The notes under the pieces: generated by a model
What the model was told of the DNA's origin: nothing
What the model saw: only the letters and a program-made list of their open reading frames with translations
Databases searched by the model: none
Origin: an uncultured Rhodobiaceae bacterium
Lineage (GTDB): Bacteria > Pseudomonadota > Alphaproteobacteria > RS24
DNA length: 64,000 nucleotides
NCBI GenBank assembly: GCA_937907245.1
Contig: CALCUM010000003.1
Coordinates: 745,501-809,500 of the forward strand
Reading direction: 5' to 3'
Program-made: the position numbers and the translations under genes
Shown here: positions 27,999-40,556 of the stretch, piece by piece
How the letters are laid out: every line of letters starts with the position of its first letter
Numbering within the stretch: position 1 is the first letter of the stretch

Positions 27999-28012
27999 GG
28001 CAGGTTGTATCC

Positions 28013-30145: not shown

Positions 30146-30973
30146 CTAAGGGCGGGCATCGCGGGCTTTCTCATGGTCTTGATATAGGTTTAAAACAGCG
30201 CTGGCGATTTCTTCTACCGAGCGGCGGGTTACATCGATGACTGGCCAGCGCTGACGGGCAAACAATCGTCGCGCATCGGCAATTTCAGCGCGGATCAGCT
30301 CTGGGTCGATATATTCTGTTTCGCTCTCTTCATTAAGCGATAAAAGCCGATTGCGACGGATGGCGCGCAACCGTTCAGGACTATTCAAAAGGCCAACAAT
30401 CAATGGGTTCTTAGCCTCCAATAATTCGCTTGGGGGGTCGAGGCCTGGCACCAAAGGCACATTGGCAGATTTATATCCGCGGTTGGCCAAGTAAATGCAG
30501 GTCGGTGTTTTCGATGTGCGGCTCACGCCCGTTAAAATAATATCTGCCGTGTCTAAATCATTCTGGCTCTGCCCGTCGTCGTGCTGAATGGTATAATTGA
30601 GAGCATTGATGCGGCGAAAATAATCTGTGTCCATGGCGTGCTGGCCGCCCGGCTTGCCGCTGGCTTCTACATTTAGATAAGGCGCCAATTGATTCACGAA
30701 AGGCTCCAACACAGAGAGACAAGGCACGGCTAGTTTTTCGCACACACTGTGCAAATTGGCGCGAAGGGCGTCGTCCAAAATAGAATACATAACGGGGCCG
30801 GGGTTCTCGGCCAGCTCGGCTAAGGCCCGGTCGAGCGCTTTTTTTCCGCGCACCAAGCCGTAAATATGTTCTACGGGCTGGGCCTCCACGAATTGTGCGC
30901 ATACGGCGCGCGCCACCGCTTGGATGGTTTCGCCTGTGCTATCCGAGATTAAATGCAGGTGAAAATACTTCAC
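30146..30973 (-). CDS. ppsR: Pyruvate, phosphate dikinase regulatory protein PpsR (DUF299; kinase/pyrophosphorylase)
   Basis: A bifunctional ADP-dependent kinase and phosphorylase that controls phosphoenolpyruvate synthase or pyruvate phosphate dikinase. The product is 275 residues from GTG 30973, which has AAAGGA about 10 bases upstream; the frame opens 8 codons earlier at a TTG. It has HLHLISDSTGETIQAVARA, the phosphate-binding GVSRTSKTPTCIYLANRGYKSANVPLVPG, and the C-terminal RRSVEEIASAVL. It is the first gene left of the origin, the place it holds in Caulobacter. Confidence 0.96.
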   Translation of the reverse strand: MKYFHLHLISDSTGETIQAVARAVCAQFVEAQPVEHIYGLVRGKKALDRALAELAENPGPVMYSILDDALRANLHSVCEKLAVPCLSVLEPFVNQLAPYLNVEASGKPGGQHAMDTDYFRRINALNYTIQHDDGQSQNDLDTADIILTGVSRTSKTPTCIYLANRGYKSANVPLVPGLDPPSELLEAKNPLIVGLLNSPERLRAIRRNRLLSLNEESETEYIDPELIRAEIADARRLFARQRWPVIDVTRRSVEEIASAVLNLYQDHEKARDARP

Positions 30974-31420
30974 AAATGCATATCCTTTTCTGCCCAATTT
31001 AAAAGCCGCTAGAGGCTGCTTTCAAATTGTGGATTATGTGAATAGTGAGGATAAGTCGCACCGCGCGGCAAGCCAAGAAATTTCGTCCCCATTGTTGTTT
31101 TTTCATGCCTTGAGTTTCAGGCCATTTATTAAATCACCTATACCGATTGTGGATTATGGGGATACTAATCCCCGTGGCACCTGCGCTAGCTTATCCCCAT
31201 TATGCGGGTTATTCACATGCTTTTTAAAAGCGCAGAAATACGGCTTAAAACAAGTTTATTCACACTCTCTTTGGTTTATCCCCATTGTTCACAGATATTT
31301 GTGGCGGGTTTTTGCCTGTGTGTCTTTTGGCCAAAAACGAATAATCCACAGCTAGACTGCGACACTACTACAACTACTTCTTTAGTATATTAATAAGTCA
31401 AAGGAAGTTAAGAAGGTGGC
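30974..31420. other. Chromosomal replication origin (oriC), between ppsR and hemE
   Basis: A 447-base gene-free stretch between divergent ppsR and hemE. It holds ten DnaA-box-like 9-mers. Perfect TTATTCACA occurs at 31209-31217 and 31256-31264. One-mismatch forms occur at 31028-31036, 31037-31045, 31046-31054, 31148-31156, 31191-31199, 31276-31284, 31285-31293 and 31342-31350. The first four lie on the minus strand and the other six on the plus strand. AT-rich stretches near 31085-31143 and 31366-31400 are candidate unwinding sites. The same ppsR-hemE interval carries the Caulobacter origin, and genes on both sides run mostly outward. dnaA itself is not in the window. Confidence 0.87.
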
Positions 31421-37871: not shown

Positions 37872-37887
37872 TGTTTCACGTGAAACA
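37872..37887. other. parS centromere site 1 (ParB-binding)
   Basis: A perfect 16-base palindrome, TGTTTCACGTGAAACA, which is the canonical parS that ParB loads on. It lies in the 98-base gap between mnmE and mnmG, about 6.5 kb from the origin and 2.7 kb before parA. Confidence 0.95.
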
Positions 37888-39890: not shown

Positions 39891-40556
39891 ATGACTGCGG
39901 GTGCGGATATGGACGCTCAGGATTTTGCCCGCCAGTTCAATGTTTCACGTGAAACAATGATGCATCTGACCACCTACCAAGCCTTATTGGGCAAGTGGCA
40001 GAAGTCCGTTAATCTGGTTGGGCCCTCTACTTTGGCGCAATACTGGCACCGTCACGTGGCGGACTGCGCACAGATTTTGACCTTGGCCCCAAATTCAGCA
40101 CGAACGTGGCTAGATATTGGCAGCGGCGCGGGGTTTCCAGGTTTGGTTCTGGCCATTCTATTGGCTGGTAAGCCGCAAGAGGTGCCGCTCAGCCACGTGC
40201 ATTTGGTGGAAAGTGATCGCAAAAAAGTGAGCTTTCTGCGCGCGGTTTTGCGCGATACGGGCGCACCGGCGACCGTTCACCATATGCGCATTGAGGCGCT
40301 GAGCGATAATTTGCCAGCGGAATTGGCGCAAGTTGATGTGATTACAGCTCGGGCTTTGGCCTCAATGGAGGGTTTGGCTGGGCTGATGGCGCCGTTTTTC
40401 AATCCATCCACAATTGCGCTCCTGCATAAGGGACGAGATTGGCAAGAAGAATTGACGCAAGCCGCACAATATTGGACACTTGAGACCATTGCGCATGAAA
40501 GCCGTACCGATGCGCAAGCGCGATTGATTGAAGTAAAAGCCTTGGCGGCGCGTTAG
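39891..40556 (+). CDS. rsmG: 16S rRNA (guanine-527-N7)-methyltransferase RsmG (GidB)
   Basis: SAM-dependent methylation of G527 in 16S rRNA; loss gives low-level streptomycin resistance in several bacteria. The product is 221 residues from ATG 39891, which has GGAGG 6 bases upstream; a further start exists at 39873. It has KWQKSVNLVGPSTLAQYWHRHVADCAQ, the SAM motif LDIGSGAGFPGLVLAIL, and VITARALASMEGL. Codons 17-22 (NVSRET) are spelled by a perfect parS site. Confidence 0.97.
   Translation: MTAGADMDAQDFARQFNVSRETMMHLTTYQALLGKWQKSVNLVGPSTLAQYWHRHVADCAQILTLAPNSARTWLDIGSGAGFPGLVLAILLAGKPQEVPLSHVHLVESDRKKVSFLRAVLRDTGAPATVHHMRIEALSDNLPAELAQVDVITARALASMEGLAGLMAPFFNPSTIALLHKGRDWQEELTQAAQYWTLETIAHESRTDAQARLIEVKALAAR
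39941..39956. other. parS centromere site 2, inside the rsmG coding sequence
   Basis: A second perfect 16-base TGTTTCACGTGAAACA palindrome, 8.6 kb from the origin and about 640 bases before parA. It is read in frame as part of FNVSRETM of RsmG, so the DNA must satisfy ParB and the protein at once. Confidence 0.95.

Follow-up and report, generated by a model that had tools for sequence, protein, structure and literature searches.

Zero-spacer DnaA-box arrays in the chromosomal origin of an uncultured Rhodobiaceae bacterium

Is the intergenic gap of 447 bases between ppsR and hemE (30974-31420) the chromosomal origin of replication of this uncultured Rhodobiaceae bacterium, and what could DnaA boxes that touch each other mean for initiation there? 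A sequence-only reading of the 64,000 nucleotides analysed here (the window, C3:745,501-809,500) had claimed that the gap is the origin and that its abutting boxes may fix the phase of the DnaA filament. We examined the genome as a whole, which comprises 1,804,735 bases in three contigs of 3,085, 759,859 and 1,041,791 bases. The spacing of DnaA boxes is thought to govern DnaA loading and the time at which an origin fires, and this knowledge comes mostly from the 2-bp arrays of E. coli. In contrast to them, a family whose boxes have a spacing of exactly zero provides a natural test case for whether spacing fixes the filament.

The chromosomal origin between ppsR and hemE

The left neighbour of the gap is ppsR (COG1806; Kinase-PPPase, PF03618; 30146-30997, minus strand) and its right neighbour is hemE (URO-D, PF01208; 31421-32479, plus strand). 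Profile matches beyond hemE identify a UPF0093 gene, which we take to be hemJ, followed by rho. The frames past rho are presumably mnmE, mnmG, rsmG, parA and parB, in that order, and a ParB domain was detected in the last of these by a profile match. Two perfect parS sites (TGTTTCACGTGAAACA) are found 6.5 and 8.5 kb downstream of the gap, at 37872-37887 (C3:783372) and 39941-39956 (C3:785441), such that the parAB genes and both sites all lie within 6.5-11 kb of it. The first parS site is located directly past the mnmE frame and the second within the rsmG frame. The claimed agreement with the Caulobacter origin is borne out by the Pfam assignments of COG1806 and hemE; that origin was experimentally mapped between hemE and COG1806, and the arrangement in Rickettsia is alike (PMC1914354). 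A 108-aa frame with a GTG start inside the gap (31029-31355) was rejected as coding, as it contains many indels among the aligned relatives.

The cumulative GC skew of contig C3 showed a single minimum at 775,646, which is position 30,146 of the window, and rose afterwards. This is also the minimum of the whole genome, 0.8 kb from the gap. GC skew had been named as a check on the origin claim, and the global minimum indeed falls near 31 kb, not far off. On contig C2 the cumulative skew climbs until 616,078, where it peaks. The arm lengths depend on an assumed end-to-end join of C3 with C2; under this assumption, the two arms from minimum to maximum measure ~882 and ~919 kb and the two points are nearly opposite.

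The genome encodes one full-length DnaA (TIGR00362, 576 bits). The segment by which it contacts DNA, GGRDHTTVIHA, is the same as in the DnaA of the solved structure 8btg, and hence the box consensus TTATNCACA should apply here. When boxes are counted at no more than one mismatch to this consensus, the gap holds ten of them, four on the minus strand and six on the plus strand, most with one mismatch. Shuffled versions of the gap (n=2000) contained a mean of 0.29 boxes and never more than 3. The genome holds ~540 boxes, and every other stretch of 447 bases has at most four.

Dense clusters of DnaA boxes are also known outside origins. The cluster might in principle be a site of DnaA titration or recycling, similar to datA or DARS, with the true origin elsewhere. 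We consider this extremely unlikely, because the genome has a single global skew minimum and it lies at the gap. Furthermore, there is no second cluster of more than four boxes, the next best one being situated within an elongation-factor G-like gene, while the gene neighbourhood, the DnaA-trios and the AT-rich element of our gap are all of the origin type. Box cluster, skew minimum and conserved neighbours agree, and the original claim is upheld: 30974-31420 is an ordinary alphaproteobacterial chromosomal origin, in the place expected for the group.

Abutting boxes and their conservation

On the ppsR side of the gap the boxes lie on the minus strand. Three of them, TAATCCACA (31028-31036), CTATTCACA (31037-31045) and TTATCCTCA (31046-31054), follow each other without a spacer. 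The third is off consensus at position 7, yet very conserved in the family alignment; DnaA may bind it weakly or not at all. A fourth box, TAATCCACA (31148-31156), is abutted by the weak box GTATCCCCA (31157-31165), whose GGGA core is conserved in the family alignment.

Towards hemE the boxes lie on the plus strand. They comprise TTATCCCCA (31191-31199), two exact boxes TTATTCACA (31209-31217 and 31256-31264), a second TTATCCCCA (31276-31284) with TTGTTCACA (31285-31293) abutting it, and TAATCCACA (31342-31350). This last box stands beside the putative unwinding element and reads TAATC(C/A)ACA or TTATCCACA in most relatives. The space between the boxes at 31191 and 31209 is filled by the degenerate 9-mer TTATGCGGG (31200-31208), which makes 31191-31217 a zero-spacer triple as well; this middle member is better in relatives (e.g., TTATTCACC, TTATTAACA). 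With the weak members included, this gives five minus-strand sites towards ppsR and about seven plus-strand sites towards hemE. The ten 9-mers of the sequence-only reading are all present with the positions and orientations claimed, the first four on the minus strand and the last six on the plus strand, and the triple at 31028-31054 and the pair at 31276-31293 both abut exactly. Its list was nevertheless incomplete, since the weaker members at 31157-31165 and 31200-31208 had been overlooked. Only three abutting same-strand box pairs occur in the whole genome, all of them within this gap.

Is the zero spacing conserved? The gaps of relatives were fetched via HemE, which yielded a family set of 21 genomes, the present one included. 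A minus-strand triple at spacer 0, with at most 4 mismatches in total over the three boxes, was found in 16 of these 21 genomes, whereas none of the 21 reached this level at spacers of -2, -1 or 1 to 6. The plus-strand array (31191-31217; TTATCCCCA TTATGCGGG TTATTCACA) is kept in a weaker version by many relatives. At spacer 0 its family median was 6 mismatches per three boxes, compared with 10-11 for the remaining spacers and 12 for shuffled sequence. None of the control spacers, compared from -2 to 6, resembled spacer 0. At the level of sequence, the zero-spacer abutment is thus real and conserved in the family, and it is the noteworthy feature of an otherwise ordinary origin. Because exactly zero spacing has been conserved, it appears reasonable to suppose that the DnaA filament is held in a fixed phase by abutting boxes.

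The left triple extends beyond this family. In a second family, whose ppsR is ~50% identical, four genomes have it next to this gene (e.g., as TGTGGATTA TGTGGATAA CAGGGATAA). The automatic three-box test is unreliable for the left triple in these four gaps, as three of the four were cut inside it. A Sneathiella locus (L072) has abutting box pairs at both array places. Among other alphaproteobacteria, a zero-spacer triple was present in one of 47 gaps. The triple pattern matched in 11 of 385 genomes of the class and its reversed control in 0 of 385; these 11 matches include one outside any ppsR-hemE gap (L206) and one that was not among the gaps fetched (G322). Zero-spacer triples are therefore no general feature of the class. 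We did not find such arrays described in the literature on abutting or contiguous DnaA boxes, which is a weak indication given our limited coverage of subscription papers.

An alternative explanation might be that the gap is the origin, but that the triple at its ppsR end acts for the ppsR promoter or for a DNA-binding protein other than DnaA, with the zero spacing as an inherited leftover of tandem duplication. The triple lies ~30-80 bp upstream of possible ppsR starts, TTATCCTCA is conserved beyond what its resemblance to the DnaA consensus would call for, and the family relatives are non-independent samples. Yet, the arrays can be aligned across the family, while the DNA directly bordering the triple on its left and some of the middle (~31,220-31,270) cannot. 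Moreover, the members of the triple vary mostly within the DnaA consensus, with for instance TAATCCACA, TTATTCACA and TGATTCACA at one and the same place. A promoter function or duplication also sits uneasily with the second zero-spacer array in opposite orientation, and with the persistence of the triple beside the divergent ppsR of the second family. On balance, we regard this alternative as unlikely and favour the arrays as binding sites for DnaA.

A candidate opening site at the hemE end

The sequence-only reading ended at the boxes and overlooked what lies past 31350. Starting 14 bases beyond the box at 31342-31350, the plus strand carries a DnaA-trio-like run, CTA CTA CAA CTA CTT CTT (31365-31382), which reads 3'-GAT GAT GTT GAT GAA GAA-5' on the opposite strand and is directly followed by TAGTATATTAATAAG. 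This box has the highest trio score among 541 boxes of the genome. The run falls within an AT-rich, putative duplex-unwinding region of low computed stability (31363-31414), and the least stable 40-mers between window positions 28,000 and 34,000 begin at 31363-31375. According to the automatic score, box, spacer and triplets stand in one phase in 20 of the 21 family gaps. In relative L189 this score picked the wrong box; its aligned sequence shows a CAA-type run.

A survey of basal unwinding systems (BUS) requires three or more 3'-NAN-5' triplets no further than 16 bp from a box, with 3'-GAT-5' as the commonest triplet and tandem boxes in 57% of cases (PMC8287927). Our gap resembles the BUS of Bacillus subtilis and other bacteria in having a box, a short spacer, trinucleotides on the expected strand and AT-rich DNA, and its trios start within the 16-bp limit. 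It differs in having a single conserved box with a 14-base spacer, and in the replacement of the central adenine in one of the six triplets. The five triplets with a central adenine include the final three in a row, whereas the third triplet (GTT) would break a run that must be uninterrupted from the first. Replacement goes further in relatives. In L182-L185, L187, L189 and L194 the run is CAA CAA CAA CAA/CTA CAT CCT, which keeps the 3-base rhythm without keeping the adenine, and in many relatives the first three or four triplets lack it. Because CTA is replaced by CAA (3'-GTT-5') in several relatives, conservation of the central adenine within the family is not strict. The run thereby adds an alphaproteobacterial example of an opening element proposed as widespread, and the relatives with a replaced adenine bear on a trio position that was supposed to be conserved.

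Judged from these sequence features, the likely opening site is the hemE end, with the box at 31342-31350, the trios and the AT-rich DNA. Opening could alternatively take place at the ppsR end beside the abutting triple, where the outermost minus-strand box faces outward to ppsR. This seems very improbable, however, because the family alignment shows neither conserved sequence nor a trio run to the left of 31028, and because the trios and the least stable DNA are at 31363-31414. Given the position of this element at the hemE end, the triple at 31028-31054 is probably not the place where the DNA is opened.

From these features we infer that DnaA binds, that a filament grows over the arrays, that the duplex opens at the hemE end and that the origin fires. 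DnaA would bind two opposed sets of boxes, the minus-strand boxes on the ppsR side and the plus-strand boxes on the hemE side, each with zero-spacer arrays in which the distance from one site start to the next is exactly 9 bp. DnaA-ATP would occupy the arrays cooperatively, and the filament would then extend across the final box (31342-31350) to the repeated triplets (31365-31382). The AT-rich stretch would be opened to about 31,414, leading to helicase loading. With a 9-bp pitch and 10.5 bp per turn, each DnaA is predicted to be turned ~50 degrees relative to the preceding one. We are highly confident of the explanation as a whole, in which the gap is the origin and DnaA, bound to two opposed box sets with zero-spacer arrays, opens the AT-rich hemE end.

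Comparison with known origins and cell-cycle control

In E. coli oriC, the sites of an array are exactly 2 bp apart and share one helical face (PMC4451416). Its two halves carry oppositely oriented arrays, and the two DnaA-ATP oligomers that form on them face each other (PMC10316083; PMC4451416). The gap studied here shares with oriC (R1, R4 and two low-affinity arrays) the two opposed sets of sites, each running in one direction, and an unwinding element beyond one end box. It differs in its spacing, with spacer 0 and a 9-bp pitch instead of a 2-bp spacer and an 11-bp pitch. In the family, spacer 2 had no advantage over the remaining non-zero spacers, so that these are not arrays of the E. 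coli type. The box layout thus represents, as far as its sequence goes, a variant relative to the 2-bp arrays, and the zero-spacer pitch would imply a distinct filament. Possibly, the origins of this family and of at least one other alphaproteobacterial family are based on two opposed zero-spacer arrays with a 9-bp pitch, on which DnaA steps by ~50 degrees in a geometry unlike the one-face stacking of E. coli. We put this broader view forward tentatively, at somewhat less than an even chance.

The origins of Caulobacter crescentus (Cori) and Rickettsia prowazekii resemble our gap in their hemE-COG1806 flanks, DnaA boxes and AT-rich stretch; the zero-spacer triple arrays set our gap apart from both. 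The TTATCCCCA sites contain the core TCCCCA of the Caulobacter W-box (PMC4285127). Yet, Caulobacter has two G-boxes and weak W-boxes, in contrast to the ten boxes near the general consensus found here. The two also differ in regulatory sites. The full CtrA site (TTAA-N7-TTAA) had no exact match in the gap, and the E. coli-type IHF consensus had none either, in a consensus search that leaves degenerate sites outside its reach. With no exact sites in the gap, a Caulobacter-type layout controlled by CtrA was rejected, as was, at the level of consensus matches, one controlled by IHF.

Two box-free parts of the gap are among its best-conserved in the 21 relatives and matched no known site. One is the block CCAAGAAATTTCGTCCCC (31073-31090) and the other the near-palindrome TTTATTAAAT (31125-31134), a possible site for another protein. 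Elsewhere in the genome, outside the window, C3:330231-330653 encodes a protein of ~135 aa that includes a region resembling DnaA domain IV (PF08299, 41.5 bits) but lacks the AAA+ domain; NCBIfam models related to it (PRK06030) carry the name hypothetical protein.

As in Caulobacter, the genome encodes GcrA and a CtrA-like regulator, the latter with NF045991 as its best NCBIfam match at 295 bits, under the model cut-off of 350. The bacterium therefore probably possesses the cell-cycle circuit of its class. The motif GANTC, which is its own complement, is absent from the gap and occurs 916 times in the genome, versus ~7,000 expected under even base use, and is thus 7- to 8-fold rarer. This depletion resembles that of genomes with CcrM-type methylation.
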